This document shows, piece by piece, positions 29,124-52,110 of a stretch of DNA of 64,000 nucleotides. The notes under the pieces are model-generated. The model was not told the origin of the DNA and did no database searches. It worked only from the letters and a program-made list of their open reading frames with translations. The first letter of the stretch is position 1; each line of letters starts with the position of its first letter. The translations under genes were made by a program, and so were the position numbers. This stretch comes from Wolfiporia cocos (lineage: Eukaryota; Basidiomycota; Agaricomycetes; Polyporales; Phaeolaceae): positions 1,984,001 to 2,048,000 of the forward strand of contig JACCLO010000010.1 of NCBI GenBank assembly GCA_029448655.1. Reading direction: 5' to 3'.

Positions 29124-29284
29124 TAGTCTCGTCCCCAGACCTTGCACGTGGCTGCTGCCACTCGGGAGGACCCGAGCGGAGTGTGAAAAACATATTGCAG
29201 CAGCCACTGTACAAGGTCTGTGACACAGATATATGCTCATACCGTATAACCTGTGTACCGCTGTCCTAGTGTCCCTCAACCTAA

Positions 29285-30380
29285 TGACACAGATGGCTCT
29301 GTGGGACTCACCACGCCAGTATCCTTGCGATGAACTAAGGCGACGAGGTGAGGTAGAGGTTATCAGACGCTATAGTAGGTGGAAGGTTCTTCTACGGCGT
29401 ACGCCGAGAAGAATAGAACTAGGGTTTATAGGCCGTCAAGGCCCTACTTATATACACATATATAACGGGTCATGTGCTACTGTATAGTACATGCCCGATA
29501 AGGAATGTGGGCTTGGTTGCCATAAGGGCGACCAAGTGGTATGACTACTCTACAAAGGCCGTGGCCCGCCGGTAATGGCCGGGCCAATGGTAAAATAGAG
29601 AGTGTGTGGTCTCATCGTTAGATGGACATGTGAAGACGGGCGCAGCCCGGGTATAAGGGATGCCGGTTGCCGGATACCGTGAGGTATAATGGCGATTGGC
29701 CGGTCATCGGATGCTGACCAAGGCGGAGCGCCGAGGTCGTAATGCTATTGGGCCAGTAGGCACCGTAGCATATGATATGTCCGGTCCGGAAGGTTACCGG
29801 AACATATGGTGGTCCTAGCCGTGAGGCGAGGACCGGTGTTTGGGCAACGCCGTGATGGCAGAAGCCCGGGACTTGGAGAACGCCGAGTCCGTGGGATGGC
29901 CGAGAAGGCCGAGCCTATAGCGATATTGCCTTGATGCTAATATAGTGCTATTTGGCCGTGTTGCCATTATTATGCGAAGGCGTGGCGCGCCTGAGGTGCC
30001 ATTGTGATCAAGGATCTTATGGCAATGGGAAGCCGGGAAGGCCGACCCAATAGTACAAGGCCGCGAGGCACTGTTTGTACATGTGGACATTATTATGCGA
30101 GCGTGCCGCGCTCGGCCTATCATTATGATCTAAGATCTATGACGTGGCTGGTCTTGCTCTGACGGGCGAGACCTGTATGACGTAGCTGTAACTATGCTAT
30201 TGGACCGGAAGGTGCCGTAGCGTTATGTAAGCTGGTCATGTGGTGATAAGCCCAGTTAAGAGCTTGTCGTGGTGGCAATGGGAGTTAACCCGTAGATAAC
30301 TTGTAGGTAGACGTATAAATCCCAGGTAAATTGCTATAATCGTAGGAAAAATGCTGTAAGCCCCAGATAAATCTGTGACA
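29285..30380 (-). mobile_element. 3' LTR of the A element
   Basis: 1,096 bp, TGACACAGATGGCTCTGTGG to CAGATAAATCTGTGACA. The minus-strand TATA box is at ~29446-29453 and the RNA start AGTTCTATTCT is at 29420-29410. The U3 carries two imperfect ~130-bp modules around CATTATTATGCGA. Confidence 0.93.
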
Positions 30381-30393
30381 TTACCCCCGCTTT
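30381..30393 (-). promoter_or_regulatory. Polypurine tract of the A element
   Basis: On the minus strand it reads AAAGCGGGGGTAA directly before TGTCACAG, matching GAAGAGGGGGTAA at the R1 3' LTR (51401-51413). The preceding ~25 bases (ATGAAACCT context) are also shared with R1. Confidence 0.85.
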
Positions 30394-30450
30394 AGGTTTC
30401 ATCGTCCCTGATGAAACTATTCCTCATTATGTACGTCCCAAGAGCGGTAT

Positions 30451-30663
30451 AACGCGTGATGACGAAGTGTCAAATGCCGTTATGGTGCTGCTTCAATTTG
30501 TCAATTGAACAGGGATAAATGGGAGTTTCAGGACTTGTGAATGGAACCTGAGCGTGGAAGGCGATTTTATTCCTTAAAGTGATTTGTAACGCGTGATAGC
30601 GAAGTGCTAAATGCCGTTACTAGCGATTATCAACGCGTGATGACCGAAAGGTCAAATGCCGTT
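30451..30663 (-). ncRNA. Three copies of a covarying hairpin
   Basis: The copies are at 30451-30481, 30588-30618 and 30632-30663. Constant arms (AACGCGTGAT on the left, AAATGCCGTT on the right) enclose a stem that changes on both sides: GAC/GTC, AGC/GCT and GACC/GGTC, with GAAGT or GAAA loops as read on the plus strand. The outer AACG/CGTT also pair. The element is transcribed on the minus strand, where the same stems form. Confidence 0.75.
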
Positions 30664-30722
30664 GTTTGAGAATTGTAGTCGTGTTACTAGAGTGTGTTGT
30701 CATTGTGCACGCGGATCCTAAG

Positions 30723-30790
30723 AGGAAGGGCTTTCCTGTTATCGCTGAAGGTGTTCTAGTGCCTTTTCGCGACCTTTGTCGGATTGTTGC
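30723..30790 (-). ncRNA. Three-helix RNA module, copy 1
   Basis: Helix 1 AGGAA/TTCCT (30723-30727 with 30733-30737); GTTA spacer; helix 2 TCGC/GCGA (30742-30745 with 30769-30772); helix 3 AAGG/CCTT (30748-30751 with 30762-30765). The internal loop is TG opposite TTC and the apical loop is TGTTCTAGTG. A CCTTTGTCGGA tail follows. Confidence 0.72.
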
Positions 30791-30954
30791 TTTTGCTTAT
30801 GACGTTACTCGTAGTAGAAGGCGATATGGAATGTACATCATATAGTGCCTTTGAAGTCTACTAGTAATCTGTGCTCCAATAGCTTGCCAAGCGTATTAGA
30901 GGGTGCATTGTGTCGTTGTACGTGTTTCGGATAGCATTGTGCGATATTCCTTAG

Positions 30955-31020
30955 AGTGAGGGCTTCACTGTTAGCTCTGGAGATTTTCTAGTGTCTCTTC
31001 GAGCCCTTTGGCGGATATGT
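30955..31020 (-). ncRNA. Three-helix RNA module, copy 2
   Basis: Same layout with different bases: helix 1 AGTGA/TCACT (30955-30959, 30965-30969); helix 2 GCTC/GAGC (30974-30977, 31001-31004); helix 3 GAGA/TCTC (30980-30983, 30994-30997). Apical loop TTTTCTAGTG, tail CCTTTGGCGGA. Confidence 0.72.
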
Positions 31021-32268
31021 TGCTTATGCGTAGTACCCATTGAATGTAGCATAGCGATGCTTTTTCGACGTCTATTGCCTAGCGGTGAATGGGATTGCAA
31101 GTTCCTTCATTCGCGTGGCGGGTGTCTTAGGCTTTGTGCTTGTACAGGGGTAATCCTACTTTGTACGACTTATGCGGTTGAACGGTTATTAAAGGACGTC
31201 GCCTTATGAACGTTTATGAGGCGTCGCCTCCCTAGTATCGCAAGTACTAAGCGTGAGACATTTGTCAATGCCCATTTGTTACAGGGGTTGTGTCCCCTAG
31301 TTAGATTGCTTCTATGTAGCGATCTCTTCGGAGTCGTAAGTTCCGGAATGAAGCTGTGCCTTCGTGGTTGTATGCACTATTTATTAACGAGTAGGCTTCT
31401 CGTGTAAAACCCCATAGTATAGGTACTAATCATTGTGCATTATGTTTATATGCTTATGATTGTATTCCCTAGACTGTAGTGTCGTTGCCGTAGTGAGGCC
31501 TTATTGGGTAACCGTGAGAACATACATCCTTGTCAGGAGTTGTCTCGTAAAGGTATGTCCCGTAAGGGCTGAGGTCACGTGGTGGCGATGACAGTAGTTT
31601 CCAATGTGCTTGTATGTCGTTAAAGTCGTTCTTCGATTGAGTATTGACATTGTAAGCGTGGGAACTGGGATGATCGTTGGGGAAGGATATATTTTGCTAT
31701 TGGATAGATAGCTACTATATTCCTATTACAGGGTTGTCGTCCATATACGAATAGGACAGTACGAGCATGAATGAGGGTAATCAGGCCTCTTAGTGCATGT
31801 CGTTTGTTGCTTTTAATGACCGTGAGGTACATTTGTAAGCGTGGGATAGTGGACTTGTTAAGGTCCTAGGTGTGAAATTAGGGTTTCCACCCCCTCTTTC
31901 ACGTTTGATCTCCCGATCAAACCTATCCAGATGGTTTTGGTTTTTAAAGAGGTTAAACCGCCTCTATACCCAGATAAGGGTGGGTGGATGTGGGCCGAAG
32001 GTATTCTTGACGTATATCCATATACGGCTGTATCCAGTGTAGTCGCTCGCATATGCGACCAGATTTTTATACTAAGGTTTCCAGGCCCTAGTTTGTCGGA
32101 ATCGAGGGGTTTTCCAGGCCCATATTCGATGTAGTGACGAGATGTAATCCTTTCTTGGCGTAAGGATACAGATCCGGATTTATTTATTACGTGTCTCGAC
32201 GACGCAGGTTTCCGTAAACCAAGCAAATGAATGATAACCGATTGCCAAATCGGCTTGATTGTCCTAAT

Positions 32269-32330
32269 AAGGGGGACTCCCTTGTTATCTCTGGAAGTTT
32301 TCGAGTGCTTCTTCGAGACCTTTTGCGGAC
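32269..32330 (-). ncRNA. Three-helix RNA module, copy 3
   Basis: Helix 1 AAGGG/CCCTT (32269-32273, 32279-32283); helix 2 TCTC/GAGA (32288-32291, 32315-32318); helix 3 GAAG/CTTC (32294-32297, 32308-32311). Apical loop TTTTCGAGTG, tail CCTTTTGCGGA. The TG and TTC bulges and the GTTA spacer are unchanged. Confidence 0.72.
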
Positions 32331-33199
32331 GATCGCATTGAATTGCTAAGGTGTATTTTTCGAATTCGGTTATTCTCCCCACAGAGAAAAGTTGAATTGA
32401 AGTGAAATCAAAAGTGAGGTAGCGAGCCTCGTGACGAATTTTGCGAGTGGCGTGCGAAATTGTCGATTTCAATACAGGGGGGAACCGATTGGAGATCGGT
32501 TGTGAATTCGGCGATTGTGCGAGAATGCCGAATGAAGTGTGATTCTAGAAGCCTTGCGGCCTCCGCTACACTTCAAGGGAACGCGTATCAATAGCGTGTG
32601 TCCCTTGTTTTCCTTTCCTCTAACCCAGATTGCAAGATTCAATGAAGTAATCTTGTTGCGATCTGTTTGTACGTGGGTGGCTGGTGGAAACAGCGCTGTA
32701 CCCAATTATTTATAGACGCTTGTCAGACGTCTCTTCCCAAACGGATGGTAATTTCCTTGTCAGGAATTCCATTACCGAAAGGGGTGCCCCCGTTCAAAGG
32801 TTCTTATGACATGTGACCAAATGACAGATGCTCCAATAACCCGAATCCCCTTTTCAGGAGCGAAGACCGAAGTCAAACGGGCGCCGACGGATTATGTGAA
32901 TCCTAATCGACTTGGTACTTAGGCATTCCCATAGTAATAATAGTTATAAGCATATATTTGCCAAGCGTACGCGATCCTTCGTCTAAGGGAACAGGTACTA
33001 GTATCGTTCTTCGATTGACTAAGTGTACCCGTAAGACGTAAAGGTTGCCTTTTATGTACATAGGCGACCTTAACCAGGCTAGATAACCTGGGAACCAGCA
33101 GGTGACGCAGGATTTCCAAAGGCGAATACAAATGCTATTGGACGGTTTCTAAGCTAATACAAGTATTGCTATTTACTAGGAGCCGCCACTAAAACTACA

Positions 33200-34238
33200 T
33201 ATTTATCTACTTATGGACTGGGATACCAGGGTACCTGAAAGAGAGCTCGTCATCAGCGATCAACGCTGAGTGGTCATGTCAAACACAAGAAGAACGGGGG
33301 CATGGTTAGGGGCGCCCTTATCAGGACGCCGCGCGGAAGTTAGCCGACAGGTGTCTTCATCGAAGCGCGCGACTTCCTTCTAGAAAGAGAGTCGGTGACT
33401 GCCAGCATTTGACAGGCTGGGTCACATGGTTGGGAATAGGATACACAGCCCATTTCCTCGCGGAGATGAGCTGGAAAGTGGTTGCAGTATTACACCGCGA
33501 CCGGTCCACGCTTTAGTGGTAAGGCTTGCCATCTATAGCCACCTGGGTGTCACATCAGGGCTAAAAAACCATCCGTCGATCTAGGATCGCGCATTCACGA
33601 GCGCTCCACACATCAAAGATGGTGGGCAACGCCGCATGCTTCCGGTGGGGCCCCAACTCGGTTTAACCCAGGCTCGCACACCGAGCTGCCCGTAGGACTT
33701 ACGCTATTGGCTACCGCGAGTGACCTCGGCTGGTTTGGCCTTGCGAGCCGCACCACCTCACCACTTGGATTCCCCGAAGGAGATCCCAAGCGGGCCCCTT
33801 ACGCCTGGGGGGCGGCTTTGGAAGATTCCCACACCCAACTAAGGGAATACGCCGAAGCGCATATCCCTATGGGGATCCTACTGGTAGTGTTGGGTCCCTG
33901 AACAGGGATTGCCAAGACAGGGGGCTGCGCGCACACAGGCAGACGGTCCCCTTTTCCCAATAGGCGGGTCTCAACCGCTGGCACCAGCAACCTTGTCAGG
34001 AAGCCGGCGCCTCTCCTTAACCCTGGAGTCCGGGTTCGCAGGACGCATGCTGCTGATTAGGCAAGCAGCGCCCCACTGGGTGGCAGCAGGCCGCTAAGCC
34101 CGCCGCCGATGTATCCCAATCCGCAACCACGGAGCATACATCCCCTTTGCAGGAGAGTAGCGGCCCCTGCGCTATCTCAGACACCTGTTGGAGGAAAAAC
34201 CCAGGCGCCACCAGTTAAGGAGGCGCAGGGGGGTAGGT
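33200..34238 (-). mobile_element. Leader of the A element, shared with D elements
   Basis: The reverse complement aligns with the R1 leader at ~42580-43250, including a 26-nt exact match (33544-33569 against the R1 leader near 43193-43219). There is no sense ORF of note. Likely roles are packaging or translation control, by analogy with long retroelement leaders. Confidence 0.75.
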
Positions 34239-34249
34239 AGTTCTATTCT
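34239..34249 (-). promoter_or_regulatory. Self-primer binding site of the A element
   Basis: The minus-strand junction is LTR-TA-AGAATAGAACT. The 11-mer is the exact complement of the A-LTR RNA start AGTTCTATTCT (34387-34377 in this LTR). Confidence 0.85.
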
Positions 34250-34251
34250 TA

Positions 34252-35347
34252 TGACACAGATGGCTCTGTGGGACTCACCACGCCAGTATCCTTGCGATGA
34301 ACTAAGGCGACGAGGTGAGGTAGAGGTTATCAGACGCTATAGTAGGTGGAAGGTTCTTCTACGGCGTACGCCGAGAAGAATAGAACTAGGGTTTATAGGC
34401 CGTCAAGGCCCTACTTATATACACATATATAACGGGTCATGTGCTACTGTATAGTACATGCCCGATAAGGAATGTGGGCTTGGTTGCCATAAGGGCGACC
34501 AAGTGGTATGACTACTCTACAAAGGCCGTGGCCCGCCGGTAATGGCCGGGCCAATGGTAAAATAGAGAGTGTGTGGTCTCATCGTTAGATGGACATGTGA
34601 AGACGGGCGCAGCCCGGGTATAAGGGATGCCGGTTGCCGGATACCGTGAGGTATAATGGCGATTGGCCGGTCATCGGATGCTGACCAAGGCGGAGCGCCG
34701 AGGTCGTAATGCTATTGGGCCAGTAGGCACCGTAGCATATGATATGTCCGGTCCGGAAGGTTACCGGAACATATGGTGGTCCTAGCCGTGAGGCGAGGAC
34801 CGGTGTTTGGGCAACGCCGTGATGGCAGAAGCCCGGGACTTGGAGAACGCCGAGTCCGTGGGATGGCCGAGAAGGCCGAGCCTATAGCGATATTGCCTTG
34901 ATGCTAATATAGTGCTATTTGGCCGTGTTGCCATTATTATGCGAAGGCGTGGCGCGCCTGAGGTGCCATTGTGATCAAGGATCTTATGGCAATGGGAAGC
35001 CGGGAAGGCCGACCCAATAGTACAAGGCCGCGAGGCACTGTTTGTACATGTGGACATTATTATGCGAGCGTGCCGCGCTCGGCCTATCATTATGATCTAA
35101 GATCTATGACGTGGCTGGTCTTGCTCTGACGGGCGAGACCTGTATGACGTAGCTGTAACTATGCTATTGGACCGGAAGGTGCCGTAGCGTTATGTAAGCT
35201 GGTCATGTGGTGATAAGCCCAGTTAAGAGCTTGTCGTGGTGGCAATGGGAGTTAACCCGTAGATAACTTGTAGGTAGACGTATAAATCCCAGGTAAATTG
35301 CTATAATCGTAGGAAAAATGCTGTAAGCCCCAGATAAATCTGTGACA
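34252..35347 (-). mobile_element. 5' LTR of the A element
   Basis: Identical by eye to 29285-30380. The promoter fires leftwards into the leader. The inferred RNA start is at 34387, about 33-35 nt from the TATA box. Confidence 0.93.
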
Positions 35348-35352
35348 CCTAA

Positions 35353-41861: not shown

Positions 41862-42558
41862 TGTCACAGATTTGGGACATGCCACTATTTTTCCCGTATT
41901 TTTACCTATTTATCTGGTATTTCTACGACCTTGTAGACATTTACGCTGCTAAGCGCCCGTCTACACATACACGCAACCAAACAACACGTACACAACGCGG
42001 TATACGTCCACCTGTCATAACAACACGTACATAACACGTTTGTACGCGTCAATGACTCAGCGGACTAACCTCCGGTGTCACGCACCTTACTCATATCCCG
42101 ATATCGGGCTATGTCAGTACAATTGGATAAGCGGCCCGCTCGTTATCACATGCCGATGCCCTTACGATTACTCATATCCCGATACCGGTATATAGTTATC
42201 ACGTGCATGGCTTACTAACGTAGCAACGCCACTACCACAACATGGACCTACGGTCCTAACAACGTTTCTTACTGGTGCGGCCATTACCGGCGCACATGGT
42301 CTACTGTAGTTTACGACTTAGCTGTATTAGTTATGTCTGCGCACAGACCATCTAACTGTTTGGCTCCTCTTCGAGTAACCAAACAATGCATGTATATAAG
42401 TAGGGCTATCACTACAATAAGCCTTAAATTTGTTCTCTGCATTCGCATAGTTGCATATCACTCCTACTGCGCTTACTAGCACCTCCTCACCAACCTCAAC
42501 AACTCCTTCAAAGTCGTTATAAGGTTATAGTGTGAGTCCCACAGTCTAGTCTGTGTCA
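41862..42558 (+). mobile_element. R1 5' LTR
   Basis: TATATAAG is at 42393-42400 and the inferred RNA start at 42426 (AAATTTGTTCT, one change from the family AGATTTGTTCT). Contains tandem CTCATATCCCGATA boxes in U3. Confidence 0.93.
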
Positions 42559-42560
42559 TA

Positions 42561-42571
42561 AGAACAAATCT
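42561..42571 (+). promoter_or_regulatory. R1 self-primer binding site
   Basis: The junction is LTR-TA-AGAACAAATCT. It is the exact complement of the D-family RNA start AGATTTGTTCT, with one mismatch to the start in its own LTR. Confidence 0.82.
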
Positions 42572-44045
42572 CCCCGCCCTTGCGCTTGCGCTTGGGTCTG
42601 GGTTTCTATCCTACAGGGGTATATTGCTCGTTGCCGCGCACATCCCTTTCTGCCTGATAAGGCGATTGGGGTGATAGTTGAGATCTGGGGGATACATCAC
42701 CTTCCTCGGCAGAGGATTGGCAACCAGGGAAGCCACACCGCCTTTTTAGGCAGGAGGCCTACCTAACCCGGACCTCAGGGTTAAGAGGAGGCGGCTATTC
42801 CTGAAAAGGTCTAGCTGCCAGCAGTTAAGACCCGCCTGTGGAGAAGAGGGGACGGTCTGCCTGTGTGCGCCCAACCCCCTGCCATGGCAAGCGTTGCTCA
42901 GCGCCCCATCGCTATCCACAGGGTCATCATTATGATGGCATGGGAATTTTCCAAAGCCGCCGCCCAGGCGTAAGGGCCCTGCTTTGAACCCGTCATGAGA
43001 AAAGCAGTGAGGGGGGTGACGTAAAAAATCACCCTGCCATAGGTCACTCGCGGTAGCCAATAGCATAAGTCCTCCGGGCAGCTCGGCGTGCGAGCATGGG
43101 TCAAACCGAGTTGGGGCCCCATCAGAAGAGAAGCACGTAGCCCACTCCTTCGGGATGTGGAGTGTTGCTTTCTCGCGGTCTTCGGACCAATGGTGGTTTT
43201 TTAGCCCTGATGTGACACCCATGTGGCTACAGACGGCAACCTCATTGTTGAAGCATGGACAGGCTAAGGGATGTAAAATCCCAGCCACTTTCCGGCATCG
43301 TCCCTCCGGGGCGGTGTCGTGTATCCGAATCCCAATCATCTGACCCAGGAACCGGCCTGGCAGTCAGCAACTCTACCCCTGGAGTCGGCGCCTCTGACCG
43401 TTAGGGTCATGCGAATATCTGCGCCATCTCGGCACAGGGTTTGCGCGCAACATAAGAGTAATTATGTGTCACGGTTTTTATACCGTGGCATGGGTTCGAT
43501 CCCGTACCCTCCTAGACATGTAGTCACATGACGTATTCGCCGTTTAGTGTAGTGGTCAATCGCCCCCGTAGCAGCGTAACTAACCACGAGCTTAGGTCGT
43601 TCAGTTGTTATGTACTGTATCATGTGATGTACTGCGCGCACGGTCCCTTACTGTAGGGTAGGACTACTCGCGCGCCTCTTAGCACACTCATGTATATAGT
43701 CTCTGCGCTGAGGTCCTTAAGACCTCATGCTTGTTATTCTCGACGTTGGGGCTTGTCCCCCTGTATACCATCTCTACCACTGTGTGCGACTGCTGGCTTA
43801 GCCACCTCTTGACTTGCTCGTCTGCGCCTCGTCACTACGGTGTGGGTGTATACCCAAAGGACTTGCGTGTTAGGTTGAGGGATACTAGGATAGCGGTACA
43901 CAGGTTATACGGTATGAGCGTATATCTGTGTCATTATGCCCTGTAGTACACCTTCTTTGCTCCTGAAAAGGAGTCCACTACCCTACCTTACATAAATCCC
44001 TTCTTATTCCGTTCTTGGATGTATCACTGGGAAACCTAGTTTCTC
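42572..44045 (+). other. R1 long 5' leader
   Basis: About 1 kb once the C LTR is removed. It is rich in short inverted repeats and shared with the A element and R2. The only sizeable frame is antisense (197 codons, 43339-42746), which I do not regard as a gene. Probably untranslated, with packaging and translation signals. Confidence 0.65.
43467..43933 (+). mobile_element. Solo C-family LTR
   Basis: 467 bp, with TSD ttatg at 43462-43466 and 43934-43938. Palindrome GAGGTC/GACCTC and start ATGCTTGTTAT. Confidence 0.94.
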
Positions 44046-45701: not shown

Positions 45702-47662
45702 ATGTCGTCCATCTCCTCCACCAGCCCACCCCTCGCTCCCTGTCGCATGCGCCTTCGCTCGGAAGGCCCAGTGACCCCGGTAGCCGGGCCCTCAGGGACT
45801 CAACCTCTAGTATCCCTGGAGCACCTAAGCGAGGAAGAGGAAGAGGATGAAGAGGATGCTCCCCCACAAAGGGACTCCCCAGCCAACCCCATGGGAACGC
45901 GTCCGGGTACACCCATCCCCGGATATAAGCCGGCCCGGTACACCCGACCACTCGAGCCTGTCACCCAACTCGGAATAGAGTATTCGGGTCCGGTTTGCCG
46001 TACCAACGACGAGGTCAAAAAAGGGCTCAAGGCTTACCTCCTGGGGAGGACCAGCACAAGGTGGATGCTCCCCTACATGGGGCAATCCTCGACGCCGCCG
46101 TACAACGAAGTGCGGCAATAACTCACGACAAGGTCGACACCCTCGGCCAAATGGTGTACGCCCGCCTGGAGCGAATCCATGGCAGAATCGACTCCCTGGT
46201 TGGGCAATCCAGGGCGATCGAACAGATGGCCCAAGACAAACTACACGAAGCGGCTAGTTCACTCTGCAACGAAGTTGTGTCCATCGCGGTGGACCTCGGC
46301 AAGGAACTCCGACAGGAGTATACCGCCAAGTTCTCCGAAATGGAGAAGCAACTCCGGGACGAGTACCGGACTCGGATCGATGATCTCGAGGATGCGTTCG
46401 CCGAGCGCATGGAGAAGGTTGAGGAAGAACTTCGGAGGAGTCGCAAGAACCCCTCCGTTCCCAACCCTCCCGGCGTCCGCACACCCCCGGAAGAACCCGC
46501 ACCGGCCCGTACAACTGGGGCCGCTGCCGCCGCTCCACCTGCAACAACTACTGCAGCAGCCGTCGCACCGCAGATTCCAGGTCTGCCCCAAAACCTGAAA
46601 ATTCCCCCTCCCCCCGAATTCTCTGGGTCATCTGGAAAGGTGACTGCGCAGGAATGGGTGGAGAAGATGGGCCTGTACTTCGGTACGCTCAGGGTCTACG
46701 ATGACCATGACCATATCACCACGGCCCTCTTCCGCATCACAGGGGACGCATACAAATTTTTCTCGCCTCTCATCAAGAAGGCAGGAAACGGTGAACCTCT
46801 CGGCACCTGGGAGGATTTCACCAAATCCGTAATGGTGCAATACGGTAAGATGACGGACAAGGAGATCGCCAAAAAGGAAATTCGCGGCTACTACGGCACC
46901 AAGGGTAAGGAACTCGCAGAATCAAATTACTTCAATTACTGCGAATGGTTCCGAACCCTCGGCCGACTCTCCGAAACCGCCAACGAGACCCTGGTGTGGG
47001 AGTTCACCGAAACACTCCCCGAAAAGGTCAAGGACACCTTAAACGTCCTCAGCAAGACCCCATTCTTCAAGGCCCCGACCGACATCGAGCCCCTCATCGA
47101 CTTCGCTCTGGAGATGTACCAAACGTCATATCCAGACAAGATCAAGGGCTCCATTTTCGAGAAGGCCGGCAAGAAGGACTCGGCCCCCGCCGAAAAGAAG
47201 GAGACGTCCTCCGCTTCTGCAAAGAAGTCGGAGAAAAAGAAGGACAAGGGAAAGGCACCCAAATCCGCTCCCGCCGCTCCAAACCCAGACGCAACTTGCA
47301 CCTACTGCAAGCAAAAGGGTCATTGGCATTTGACTTGCCCCAAACTGGCGGCAGATAAAGCGGCTGGAACTTTCGTGCCCGCCGAAAAGCGCCGCGAAAT
47401 GGAAAGGGCGAAGGAAGCGGCCGGCTTTGGAAAGAGCCCGGCTGCTCCTTCGGGTAGTGGAAAGGGACAGGCTTCTGGCAAGAAGCCGTACTCGGCGCCC
47501 CCCGCGGATGGCAAGACGTATCGTGCCCGAACAATCTGGGAAGAAGTCATGGCTGACTCAAGTTCAGCAGGACCCTCGGCCCCCGCCTCCAACACCGTTG
47601 CCACAGTTGGGACCCTTTCGGTTCCCCTCGCCCCCACTACGCATCTCGAAGATGTCTTGTGA
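45702..47662 (+). pseudogene. R1 Gag polyprotein with one frameshift
   Basis: The ATG at 45702 starts an N-terminal region with an acidic run (EEEEEDEEDAP). The frame ends at 46121, while the rest of Gag is open in another frame to 47662; the shift falls at about 46060-46120. The second part has a coiled-coil-like region (~46130-46440), a Pro/Ala-rich linker, a Gag core beginning FSGSSGKVTAQEWVEKMGLY (~46617), a Lys/Ser/Ala tail and a CCHC zinc knuckle CTYCKQKGHWHLTC (47297-47338). Gag forms particles and binds RNA. The single shift means this copy needs recoding or is dead. The stop at 47660-47662 overlaps the pol ATG at 47652. Confidence 0.88.
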
Positions 47663-48518
47663 AGAATGCACCAGCCCCGCAGCGGCTGGGAGCATACAGC
47701 TCCCCGAAGAAGAGCACCCCTACGACGGGGCTTCACAAGGACCCCTTATCTTGTGGGAAGATAAGGCGGTCTCACGTCACCCGGTATCCCACCTCGGCAT
47801 ATTCGGAAACTCGGCAATGGACTTTGCCCGGAGGACTCAGACACTAGCTACATGTGCCCCTCCTGTATCATACTTTTTGCCTGACCCTGTCGCCCGCAAA
47901 TTCTTTACTTTGTATAATGTACACGGAAACGATTCCCGAGACGATAATAAATCGTTTTCCATCGAAGTAGAATTGTGGGTATACGGCAAAAAAGTAAACG
48001 CCATGGCATTAATCGACACCGGTGCATCAATAAGCGTCATTGATAAGAAACTCGTCCATGAGGAAAAATTAGTAACACAAAAACTACCTTCGCCTCTCGA
48101 GATTCGTAACGCCGACGGTACCTCTAATACCGCCGGTAATATCAATATGGCAGTAAAAGCTTATATGGTGCACGAGGAACACAAGTCCACCGAATTCTTG
48201 TACGTAATGGACGTACAGAATGCGGATGTGATCCTCGGTTACGACTGGTTCCTGAAACATAACCCGGACTTCAATTGGCCGGAAGGAACCTTTGTATACC
48301 GGTGTACGGAAAGATGCAAACATGGCAAACGGGTTTCGATTTCTGAGGAAGAAGACGAAATCGAACCCCGTAACATCTATCAGATCATCAACGACTTTCC
48401 AATAGATTTTCTCGGCTTAGAGGAGCTTGAGAATCCCTTTGTCGCTTGGGTGAGCACCCTTGACGAAGGAATGGAACTCCTTATCGACGCCATTCAGTCG
48501 ATAACGGAGAAGTCAGAC
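47652..48518 (+). CDS. R1 pol: aspartic protease region, truncated
   Basis: The ATG at 47652 lies 11 nt inside the end of gag, in the +1 frame. The retropepsin active site ALIDTGASISVID is at residues ~119-131 (DTG codons at 48015). A VILGYDWFLKHNPDF motif follows, typical of Ty3/Gypsy protease. An acidic linker (SEEEDEIE) leads towards RT. At 48519 a B LTR cuts the frame and the RT/RNase H part is not in the window. The protease would mature Gag and Pol in the particle. Confidence 0.88.
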
Positions 48519-49452
48519 TGTCACGGATATCCCCGTGGGGGGTACGTACTTCCCTCGCTATAGGTTATACGGCGCCGCTAGGCGTGACACAAACTAGTTG
48601 TGGGACTCACACTATAACCTATAAGGCGACTTGAAGTAGTTGCTGGTAGGTTGGTGAGGGAGCTAGTAGGTGCAAGCAGGTATGATGTGTAACTGAGCGA
48701 ATGCAGAGAACAAATCTAAGGCTTATCGTGGTGATAGCCCTACTTATATACATGCATTGTTTTGGGTACCGGTAAGGGAACCAAACATGAAGATGGTCTG
48801 TGCGCAGACATAACTAATACAGCTTAGTCGTAAACTACAATAGACCATGTGCGCCGGTAATGGCCGCACCAGTAAGAACGTTTGTTTGGACCGTAGGTCC
48901 ATGTTGTGGAAGTGGCTGTAGCTACGTTAGTAAGCCATGCATGTGATTCTTATATACCGGTATCGGGATATGAGTAATCGTAAGGGCATTGGCATGTGAT
49001 AACGAGCGGGCCGCTTATCCAATTGTACTGACATAGCCCGGTATCGGGATATGAGTAAGGCGCGTGACACCGGAGGTTAGTCCGCTGAGTCATTGACGCG
49101 TACGAGCGTGTTATGTACGTGTTGTTATGACAGGTGGACGTATACCGCGTTGTGTACGTGTTGTTTGGTTTGGTGTACGTGTAGACGGGCGCTTAGCAGC
49201 GTAAATGTCTACAAGGTTGTAGAAATACCAGATAAATAGGTAAAAATACGGGAAAAATAGTGGCATGTCCCAAATCTGTGACAAGGCGTACGACGCCCTC
49301 TATACCATAGCCACCTCTGCATCGCGCCCAGATACTGTAGATCACCTGACCGATTGGTTAGCGCTGTAGGGTAGCGCGCGCCTCAGGTACGGACACGTGA
49401 TGGTCACATCAAGTATCACATGTAGCGTAGCATCACGGTCACTCATAGTTAC
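48519..49452 (+). mobile_element. B-family LTR, 3' end deleted, with nested D LTR
   Basis: TGTCACGGATATCC at 48519. It resumes at 49284 and breaks at CATAGTTAC (49452), directly against integrase coding sequence. The missing right half and the missing RT/integrase core point to one deletion. Confidence 0.85.
48585..49283 (-). mobile_element. Solo D-family LTR
   Basis: 699 bp, with TSD aggcg at 48580-48584 and 49284-49288. It is the innermost of five nested insertions. Confidence 0.95.
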
Positions 49453-50955
49453 CAAATCCTAGAACAATATCTTAGATGTTACATTGATGTTATTCAGAAG
49501 GATAATTGGTCATGGTATCTCCCGACGGCTGAATTCGTGTACAACAACGCGGCTAGTGAGACAACAAAGAATAGCCCATTCTTTGTCGAACTAGGAAGGC
49601 ACCCTAATGCAGGACCTGCGGATTTACGTCCAACGCAATATACGGACTTAAATGCCATTGTTTACGCCAGATGGTCAGCACAAGAACAGGCTAAGGCAGC
49701 AATGAAATTAGCTGCTGAACGCTGGTCTTGGTACTATGATCAACACAAGCGCTCGGTACCATTTAAAGTCGGCGACAAAGTCTTCGTTGACACCCGTAGC
49801 TGGCAAGACTCCGAAAGAAGTCTTAGTCCACGCTATTTGGGACCATTTAAGATAATCAAACAATTATCTCCGGTCACCTTTAGGGTACACATGGACGAGC
49901 AATACAGGGCCTATCACCCCGTATTCCACGCTTCCAAGTTGGTTATGTACAAGGACCCTGTGCATCAGAAGAAACCAGAGCCTCAACCAGAAATGGTCGA
50001 CGGCGAGGAACTATGGGAAGTCGAGAAGATCTTAGATCATCGCCTCCGCGCAGGAAGAATTGAATACAGAATCCGATGGAAAGGATTCGGTATCAATGAC
50101 GACTCCTGGGTACGCGAAGCCGATCTCGACACGGCATATGACATTCTGCAGGAATACAAGGCTTCACACGCCTGACACAGACTCACAGCTCTGTGGGACC
50201 CTGACTACAGGGTAGTCCCTATAGGGCCTACAAGGCGGTGTGCCAGCCACAAGGCAACCAGTCGGCTGTATCCCCATGGGGGAACTCCTAAGGCGACCAA
50301 GCGAGACGACACACAGACGAGCAAGTCTTAGAGGGCCCCCGGGGCAGAGACGCACACAAAGACAGATGAGAGAGGAGCCATAGGCTCAGTTGTCGAGAAT
50401 CCTAAAGATGGGGAAGTAAGTCCCCATCTTGTCGTACTTATACATGGGGAGCTGACCAGTAATGGTCGCCCTAAAGTCGCGGCCTGTGCGCAGTAACTAA
50501 GAGGGCACATGATAATGTAACTACCTGTAACGACATGTGACGGTGTGACCCTAACGTGAGTACCTAAGGTGCGCGCTACCCTACAGCGCTAACCTATGGT
50601 CAGATGATCTAAACGGAGTCCTGGATAGACGCGGAGGTGGCTGAGGATCATGGAAGCGCGCGCGCACCTAGCGGCGCCTATAATACCTGCAGCGAGGGAT
50701 GTTACGTATCCTCTAAGGAAAGTTTGTGACAACGCCATTCCAATGCAGGATGTTCCCCTCAGGCGATCAGCTAGAAGGAAAGAAGCAGTTCACGTCTTCG
50801 ACCCTGACAGCGACGACTGGGAAGCCAACGAATGCACGTGGCCAGATGACTGGCCGCAGTATCGCGAAGAATTTGCAAAGGACCCTAAGCAGCGCATGGT
50901 TAGGCACCCCGACGGGGGATGGATGTCAGCTGACATCAACCAAAAGCGGATTTGA
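49453..50955 (+). pseudogene. R1 pol: integrase C-terminal part with chromodomain
   Basis: An open frame from 49453 begins QILEQYLRCYI, just after where the catalytic Glu of integrase should be. It continues through WYLPTAEFVYNNA and the GPFK domain (LSPRYLGPFKIIK). It then runs into a chromodomain (LWEVEKILDHR...YRIRWKGF...SWVREADL, ~50008-50150), which in chromoviruses steers integration to modified chromatin. A B LTR (50173-50731, TSD acgcc) interrupts the tail. The frame resumes at 50737 (IPMQDVPLRRSARRKEAVHV) and stops at TGA 50953-50955. The DDE core and RT are lost upstream. Confidence 0.9.
50173..50731 (-). mobile_element. Solo B-family LTR
   Basis: 559 bp, with TSD acgcc at 50168-50172 and 50732-50736. 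Confidence 0.94.
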
Positions 50956-51374
50956 AAATTGTAGTCGGTGAAGGTGGCCGAATGCCGGAAAAAGGAACTA
51001 AGGACTCAGTCGGTTTTGACCTGTACACTGCAACAGGCAATGTTCTGCCAGCCCACGGGCAGACAGAATACAACACCAAACTGAAAATCCAAGTACCTTT
51101 TGGCACTTACGGACGCATCGCCCCCCGCTCTAGTCTCGCCCAAAAAGGCATAGACGTAATGGGTGGCGTCATTGACCATGATTACCAAGGCGAAGTAATC
51201 ATTATTCTCCGGAATCACTCCGATATCTCTATCGATATTCGGGCCAGTGATAAGATTGCGCAGCTAATCTGCGAAGTTGCGAAGGACCCGCACATTACGT
51301 TACACGGAAAATCTTACTTTGAAAAGATTAAATCCGAACGCGGTACTGGTGGATTCGGCTCCACAGGAAAGTAA
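50952..51374 (+). CDS. dUTPase at the 3' end of R1
   Basis: This is a trimeric-type dUTPase (dUTP to dUMP and pyrophosphate), expected to keep uracil out of the cDNA. All five motifs are visible: DSVGFDLYTA, GRIAPRSSLAQKGI, GGVIDHDYQGEVI, ASDKIAQLI and ERGTGGFGSTGK. The catalytic Asp lies in motif 3. The frame is open from 50952 (TTG), in the -1 frame relative to the end of pol, whose TGA it overlaps. The first ATG is at 50982 (MPEKGTKDSVG) and would still give a complete enzyme. So it is made either by a -1 shift as a Pol-dUTPase fusion or from its own start. Basidiomycete Ty3/Gypsy elements with dUTPase have been reported (Phanerochaete, from memory). Confidence 0.93.
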   Translation: MKIVVGEGGRMPEKGTKDSVGFDLYTATGNVLPAHGQTEYNTKLKIQVPFGTYGRIAPRSSLAQKGIDVMGGVIDHDYQGEVIIILRNHSDISIDIRASDKIAQLICEVAKDPHITLHGKSYFEKIKSERGTGGFGSTGK

Positions 51375-51400
51375 TCGTTCCATTAGGGACAATGAAACCT

Positions 51401-51413
51401 GAAGAGGGGGTAA
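51401..51413 (+). promoter_or_regulatory. R1 polypurine tract
   Basis: GAAGAGGGGGTAA directly precedes the 3' LTR, 26 nt after the dUTPase stop. Confidence 0.85.
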
Positions 51414-52110
51414 TGTCACAGATTTGGGACATGCCACTATTTTTCCCGTATTTTTACCTATTTATCTGGTATTTCTACGACCTTGTAGACATTTACGCTG
51501 CTAAGCGCCCGTCTACACGTACACGCAACCAAACAACATGTACACAACGCGGTATACGTCCACCTGTCATAACAACACGTACATAACACGTTTGTACGCG
51601 TCAATGACTCAGCGGACTAACCTCCGGTGTCACGCACCTTACTCATATCCCGATATCGGGCTATGTCAGTACAATTGGATAAGCGGCCCGCTCGTTATCA
51701 CATGCCGATGCCCTTACGATTACTCATATCCCGATACCGGTATATAGTTATCACGTGCATGGCTTACTAACGTAGCAACGCCACTACCACAACATGGACC
51801 TACGGTCCTAACAACGTTTCTTACTGGTGCGGCCATTACCGGCGCACATGGTCTACTGTAGTTTACGACTTAGCTGTATTAGTTATGTCTGCGCACAGAC
51901 CATCTAACTGTTTGGCTCCTCTTCGAGTAACCAAACAATGCATGTATATAAGTAGGGCTATCACTACAATAAGCCTTAAATTTGTTCTCTGCATTCGCAT
52001 AGTTGCATATCACTCCTACTGCGCTTACTAGCACCTCCTCACCAACCTCAACAACTCCTTCAAAGTCGTTATAAGGTTATAGTGTGAGTCCCACAGTCTA
52101 GTCTGTATCA
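51414..52110 (+). mobile_element. R1 3' LTR
   Basis: 697 bp, the same length as the 5' LTR. Differences seen by eye include the terminal TGTATCA instead of TGTGTCA. Confidence 0.93.

Follow-up and report, generated by a model that had tools for sequence, protein, structure and literature searches.

A repeated RNA module with covarying stems and constant loops in a noncoding LTR retroelement of Wolfiporia cocos

A sequence of about 75 nucleotides recurs three times inside a retroelement in a 64,000-nucleotide stretch of the Wolfiporia cocos genome (here called the window, with positions counted from its first letter), and it raises the question of why the two arms of its stems change together while the letters between them stay the same. 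The original prediction described copies at positions 30723, 30955, and 32269 as a three-helix module with full covariation in a noncoding retroelement. Direct reading of the sequence bore out these copies and every stem quoted for them, namely, P2 (AGGAA/TTCCT, AGTGA/TCACT, and AAGGG/CCCTT), P3a (TCGC/GCGA, GCTC/GAGC, and TCTC/GAGA), and P3b (AAGG/CCTT, GAGA/TCTC, and GAAG/CTTC), together with the constant parts GTTA, TG/TTC, and TNTTCNAGTG in all three. The last of these occurs three times in the 64-kb window, each time within one of the modules, here called A, B, and C. The three claimed helices are therefore present, but the count has to be extended, as a fourth helix, P1, closes each copy.

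With P1 included, the module is predicted to fold as the same three-way junction in each copy. In plus-strand letters, the order is P1, the P2 hairpin with the loop GGGCT, the GTTA junction, the P3 arm with its internal loop TG/TTC and terminal loop TNTTCNAGTK, the CCTTNNGC strand, and the returning arm of P1. All three modules are assigned to the minus strand. Module A spans 30714 to 30785, with P1 at 30714-30718/30781-30785, P2 at 30723-30727/30733-30737, P3a at 30742-30745/30769-30772, and P3b at 30748-30751/30762-30765. Module B spans 30944 to 31018, with P1 (including one bulged base) at 30944-30950/31013-31018, P2 at 30955-30959/30965-30969, P3a at 30974-30977/31001-31004, and P3b at 30980-30983/30994-30997. 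Module C spans 32257 to 32334, with P1 at 32257-32264/32327-32334, P2 at 32269-32273/32279-32283, P3a at 32288-32291/32315-32318, and P3b at 32294-32297/32308-32311. The P1 arms are GATCC/GGATT in A, ATAT(T)CC/GGATAT in B, and GATTGTCC/GGACGATC in C; among genomic cores, 81 of 87 fell into five main arm versions, the other 6 being left unclassed. When the internal region was searched for repeats without reference to the motif, the highest-ranking family consisted of modules A to C (69 nt long, the other two copies being 78% and 72% identical to A, with spacing of 232 and 1314), and the surroundings of the three modules were unrelated except for 15 nt after A and B.

The description of the carrier as a noncoding retroelement was borne out by its LTRs, its target site duplication, and the lack of a conserved open reading frame. 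The element is 6,063 bp long (29285 to 35347, with the minus strand inferred to be sense) and is bounded by the target duplication CCTAA at 29280 to 29284 and again at 35348 to 35352. In sense orientation, LTR comparison places the 5' LTR at 34252 to 35347 and the 3' LTR, which is hairpin rich by fold z-scores, at 29285 to 30380, both on the minus strand; the two are identical over 1,096 of 1,096 bases, which indicates a young insertion. The 3,871-bp internal region holds a single open reading frame of at least 100 amino acids, and this frame had no Pfam match. A coding explanation was rejected: this frame, of 204 amino acids at 31858 to 32472 on the minus strand, overlaps module C and is open in only 6 of 30 aligned copies, the 30 loci being the best of 40 scored among 197 candidates, with close copies overrepresented. 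Part of the internal region (33417 to 34036) is 71% identical to 42765 to 43348 on the minus strand, which belongs to a stretch (41862 to 43933) with the LTR ends of a chromodomain element.

Several further properties of the element were observed. Tandem arrays with a period of ~4.96 kb, corresponding to one LTR plus the internal region, occur on contigs C1, C22, and C49 and on other small contigs, and many small contigs carry element copies with identical scores. The LTR is a member of a family whose sequences, 66 to 95% alike, are scattered through the window. Both LTRs (29285 to 30380 and 34252 to 35347) are dense in stable folds, with 120-nt z-scores reaching about -7. The RNAalifold energy of the LTR was -243 kcal/mol on the plus strand and -184 kcal/mol on the minus strand, compared with -131 to -138 kcal/mol for plus-strand shuffles, but pairs with double changes (30 plus and 21 minus) were hardly above those in shuffles (13, 24, and 22). 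The mean fold z-score of the internal region was -0.8 (plus) and -0.9 (minus) versus -0.5 and -0.6 outside the element. Outside the stems, in plus-strand letters, A-to-G differences from the window copy were ~3 to 4 times as frequent as T-to-C differences in copies L040 to L068; per site, the values were 0.17 versus 0.05 and 0.22 versus 0.07, in an analysis that covered 30381 to 32880 and 29285 to 30380.

The module is abundant in the genome (64.4 Mb in 76 contigs). The pattern TTANNNNTGNNNNTNTTCNAGTGNNNNTTC had 423 exact matches (236 + 187) and the variant pattern with AGTT had 79 (44 + 35), while reversed-pattern controls gave 0 matches for either pattern in the same genome. The exact module pattern had 0 matches in a prokaryote genome collection and 0 in IMG/VR. 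Candidate relatives with a base other than A at the second position of P3b were dismissed as chance, since the search gave 3 matches and its reversed control 10. Modules A and B lie 230 to 239 nt apart and B and C mostly 1,308 to 1,334 nt apart, as judged from 122 of 502 module places, on contigs C1 to C11.

Pairing was kept in the further modules sought across the genome. Standard pairs made up 648 of the 676 stem cells (638 Watson-Crick and 10 G-U) of 52 distinct modules, whereas 1,000 shuffles that re-dealt the 3' letters averaged 499 and never exceeded 519. When the partner strand was slid by 1 to 3 bases, 44 to 70% of cells paired, the slides of +1 to +3 losing some end cells. Double changes were present at 11 of the 13 stem pairs. 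This set was picked by its loops and junctions, so that loop conservation within it is partly by construction whereas the stems were free to vary, and it leaves out modules off the loop anchor or too near the end of a locus. The TG or GG side of the internal loop, accordingly, is present in 52/52 by construction of the search anchor; the TTC or TTT side, which lies outside that anchor but inside the genome patterns, is present in 50/52, and the P2 loop is GGGCT in 39/52. The same loops and pairing, with few single mismatches, were found in 29 element copies that were fetched by similarity to positions 30381 to 31380 rather than by the motif (copy L063 ends inside the third module and was left out of the hairpin and wobble counts). 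Of 29 stem haplotypes, ten have nothing but Watson-Crick pairs at the 13 positions, and this, with pairing far above that in shuffles, supports the claim of the original prediction that the pattern is that of a selected RNA structure. The copies come from one genome and are related to each other, and the covariation counts are thus not counts of independent events. A covariation scan run blind over the internal region found 188 helices, against 179 in a parallel-strand control and 64 under an altered pairing rule; since the scan is barely above the parallel-strand control, single-change signals in this region are not evidence. Most of the helices with several double changes in the scan belonged to modules B and C.

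Close comparisons between element copies show how the stems are replaced. Module C exists in two forms at one orthologous position, with stems AAGGG, TCTC, and GAAG in one and AGATG, CTTC, and AGGA in the other, and both forms pair; in the second, GG/TTT replaces TG/TTC. The four copies with the variant share one form and do not represent four events. The two forms differ at 18 of 26 stem bases but at 49 of 299 flanking bases (Fisher P = 2.5e-8) and at 6 of 36 unpaired bases, a stem turnover ~4 times that of the neighboring sequence in this one deep comparison. In copy L044, module B has a new P2 and one changed pair in P3a (8 of 26 stem bases versus 7 of 300 flanking bases), and copies of module A have an A-T pair swapped for G-C in P2. 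The change in module B stands in near-identical flanks, from which its source was probably recombination or template switching between element RNAs.

Such block-wise change, in which stems exceed flanks in both C and B, is also what would be expected if mutation rather than selection maintained the pairing, with template switching within hairpins during reverse transcription using one arm as the template for the other. The module has few wobble pairs, and its G-U and A-C counts are balanced (10 and 11 of 676 cells), which suits this mechanism, and passages of PMC8794818 propose it for RNA hairpins, where it can fix a stem yet keep a loop. The mechanism in those passages concerns DNA replication, and the step to reverse transcription is ours. 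Against it, the 2 x 3 internal loop is kept between two changing helices, although copying of the whole arm would make that loop complementary; the P1 arms are ~62 nt apart and still show compensatory differences between modules; the same unpaired letters stand in three modules with otherwise unrelated surroundings; and loops as diverged as the flanks, or inverted, were not seen across paralogous modules. As a full explanation, template switching is therefore unlikely, but it could contribute to the covariation alongside selection and may supply the mutations that selection filters.

The strand on which the module would act was the second point on which the original prediction needed revision: the module itself is real, but the RNA is most likely the complement of the letters that were read. 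Several features point to the minus strand as very probably the genomic RNA. A predicted self-priming primer-binding site, AAGAATAGAACTA in sense letters (34238 to 34250, minus strand), is complementary to an LTR-internal site at 34376 to 34388 (minus strand), the predicted 5' end of the RNA and start of R. This exact 13-nt self-primer complement on the minus strand has a chance of arising at random that we estimate to be on the order of 1e-4, and the predicted RNA would begin with the last ~137 nt of the 5' LTR. A TATA-like box in the 5' LTR (34415 to 34432, minus strand) precedes the self-primer copy by 26 nt. An alignment of four diverged LTRs kept a 10-nt core of the self-primer site; the self-primer match is 12 nt in another LTR family of the window and only 8 nt in the window's own coding element. 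The polypurine tract, CCTAAAGCGGGGGTAA in sense letters (30381 to 30396, minus strand), has a homolog within 51375 to 51413, between the dUTPase frame and the LTR of the coding element, which is on the plus strand. The two elements share 44 nt at 84% identity around this tract, and a hairpin beside it (30396 to 30417, minus strand) is common to both.

Folding predictions lean the same way. The mean pair probability of the covarying fold was 0.856 on the minus strand and 0.447 on the plus strand, calculated for the 67 of 87 cores in which all 13 pairs are Watson-Crick, with the other 20 left out; it was higher on the minus strand in 58 of the 67 cores and in 8 of 10 stem haplotypes. The minimum-energy fold of the minus strand gave the junction for B and C and part of it for A, while the plus strand gave it for C only. 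Neither strand gave A or B more than a weak fold z-score (-0.06 to -0.73). Unpaired regions of RNA are usually A rich, and by hand count A makes up 13 of the 30 constant unpaired letters on the minus strand and 2 on the plus strand. In the minus-strand RNA, the loops would most likely be the complements of those listed above, that is, AGCCC, UAAC, GAA/CA, and MACUNGAANA.

That the structured strand is instead the plus strand, with the module acting as part of an LTR-initiated antisense RNA or of first-strand cDNA, is improbable, but some observations fit it. The fold z-score of module C is stronger on the plus strand (-4.04 versus -2.16 on the minus strand), P1 of module C includes a T-G pair, and one copy of the second module described below has a GNRA tetraloop that varies between GAAA and GAGA. 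Other hairpins of the internal region lean to the plus strand in their excess of G-U over A-C (20 versus 5; one-sided P = 0.025), and at other settings the counts were 32 versus 10 (P = 0.0165) and 13 versus 6 (P = 0.31); the two-sided version of the test gave P values of 0.076, 0.59, and 0.088. Wobble in the LTRs carried no strand signal (P = 0.56, 0.90, and 0.56, with L041 left out of the LTR part at 77% identity). What weighs against the plus strand is that the covarying fold is poorly formed there, falling to a pair probability of 0.06 for one common haplotype, whereas it is dominant on the minus strand, where the constant unpaired letters are also rich in A.

The repeat search also identified a second repeated module, M2, with variable stems and a constant internal loop, in copies at 30450 to 30482, 30587 to 30619, and 30631 to 30664 (minus strand, assumed as for A to C). 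Its outer stem is TAACG/CGTTA or CAACG/CGTTG, its constant internal loop is CGTGA/AATGC, and its inner stems (TGAC/GTCA, TAGC/GCTA, and TGACC/GGTCA) have variable loops. A second module of this kind would suit a scaffold for folding or dimerization, in which the modules compact the genomic RNA or pair two genomes without a specific protein reader, as would the number of short perfect hairpins in the initial 2 kb of the internal region, where 22 were counted against 8.4 in composition shuffles. Hairpins are also in excess elsewhere, however, in the rest of the internal region (14 versus 10.1) and in the flanks outside the element (11 versus 5.4 and 38 versus 25.3), and the sense-strand P2 loop, AGCCC, has no self-complementarity, leaving the scaffold as a very improbable account of the module.

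The original prediction recognized no known ribozyme or riboswitch in the module, and an Rfam search of the 64-kb window agreed, with 0 matches at the gathering score. Extended to an E value of 5 over the internal region, the search gave three weak matches, none of them over modules A to C. Known ribozymes and riboswitches were excluded by this lack of an Rfam match, and no tRNA was found in the window. A reading of TTCNAGT as a tRNA-like T-loop was also discarded, because its closing pair is not kept on the plus strand and the plus strand is probably not the RNA. Among the matches listed in a search of the open-license PMC literature, no report of such a module was found.

We call the carrier LARD-like and the RNA module a new motif in a known class of element. 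LARDs, such as Sukkula of the Triticeae, are presented in passages of PMC7215508 as having a noncoding internal domain with a claimed conserved RNA structure and as being assumed to move in trans. The element resembles them as an LTR element with a noncoding core of several kilobases, here with two LTRs, a target site duplication, and an internal region without gag or pol; it differs in carrying a ~75-nt module three times with stem-by-stem covariation, in being apparently self-primed, and in residing in a 64-Mb genome that is not that of a cereal. LARD LTRs are much longer than the 1.1 kb of those found here. In contrast to TRIMs, whose LTRs are short and whose internal region is nearly absent, the element has 1,096-bp LTRs and a 3,871-bp internal region. 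Cassandra, Helenus, and Ajax, according to parts of PMC7215508 and PMC10886601, are nonautonomous LTR elements, part of which is structured or comes from a small RNA; that part derives from 5S or other small RNAs, whereas the element here has no tRNA or Rfam match. Retrozymes are described in parts of PMC4918200 as noncoding LTR elements with a functional RNA, but no hammerhead was found here (no Rfam match on either strand of the window), and the module is internal and not in the LTR.

The element also resembles self-priming chromoviruses of the Tf1/sushi type, in that its primer-binding site is complementary to an LTR-internal site over 13 exact nucleotides with a predicted RNA start, and in that its likely helper encodes a chromodomain and a dUTPase. 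Passages of PMC2864245 report dUTPase in Postia placenta elements, in some of them at the carboxyl end. Unlike these chromoviruses, including the dUTPase-bearing Ty3 elements of basidiomycetes, the element has no recognizable gag or pol, and the helper that was examined lacks the module. This helper candidate is the coding chromodomain element of the window (45995 to 52110, plus strand), which encodes a protease, an SH3 domain of the Tf2-1 type, and a terminal dUTPase and has LTR termini like those of the noncoding element. As a candidate trans-mobilizing partner, it shares LTR termini and the polypurine tract with the noncoding element. Among the best 150 of 1,408 candidates scored for dUTPase, many matches are at the end of a 1,528-amino-acid open frame and nearly all have the same score, suggesting that the chromodomain element multiplied very recently in a burst.

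A conserved unpaired surface on variable stems, present in three copies, looks like a protein-binding site, and the element has no recognizable capsid or reverse transcriptase of its own, so that the reader is most likely a protein of the abundant dUTPase-carrying chromovirus. We therefore propose, tentatively and with confidence somewhat short of even, that the three-way junction in the genomic RNA is a protein-docking site for packaging by the Gag of a helper. The RNA would be transcribed from the minus strand and self-primed, and, being noncoding, it would depend on others for export, packaging, and reverse transcription. The conserved unpaired bases, held on a scaffold of stems free in sequence, would be what the protein reads; the three dispersed copies may add binding strength, and the Gag of a helper retroelement would package the RNA that bears them. 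Several stem-loops with fixed loops and free stems, read by protein, are familiar from the packaging signals of satellite tobacco necrosis virus and MS2 and from retroviral transport elements, to which the module is likened by function alone.

We place export second, behind packaging. In that role, promoting nuclear export or RNA stability, the module would recruit a host export protein in the manner of retroviral constitutive transport elements. This is fairly unlikely but fits repeated conserved loops on variable stems, as expected of an export-receptor site, and fits the location of modules B and A, which in sense lie ~0.56 to 0.64 kb and 0.33 to 0.40 kb upstream of the 3' LTR. Module C, however, lies far upstream, and no Rfam match was found. 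The helper itself bears on both roles. It seems to lack the module, which occurred within 9 kb of 8 of 76 dUTPase places and at inconsistent distances, in a comparison of 76 of the best 150 dUTPase places with 122 of the 502 module places on contigs C1 to C11. The module would then not be the packaging signal of that helper. Either the parasite would use it to capture Gag with a signal of its own, or it would bind a host protein, an export factor for instance, and on this evidence a partner from the host is no less natural than Gag. A bolder form of the packaging proposal, speculative and fairly unlikely, is that the three junctions and three M2 copies make up a docking code of a protein-free parasite that catches helper Gag better than the RNA of the helper does, with stems that turn over ~4 times faster while the reading surface is frozen, perhaps escaping small-RNA silencing.

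The module bears on how the RNA of a noncoding LTR element enters the particles of another element: it is a compact candidate for such a signal, sharply defined at ~75 nt, that occurs naturally in hundreds of copies, and its loops can be tested apart from its stems. The replacement of stems between close element copies also provides unusual natural covariation data in which selection and template switching are separable. As a candidate docking site in the RNA, the module likely helps the element to spread.
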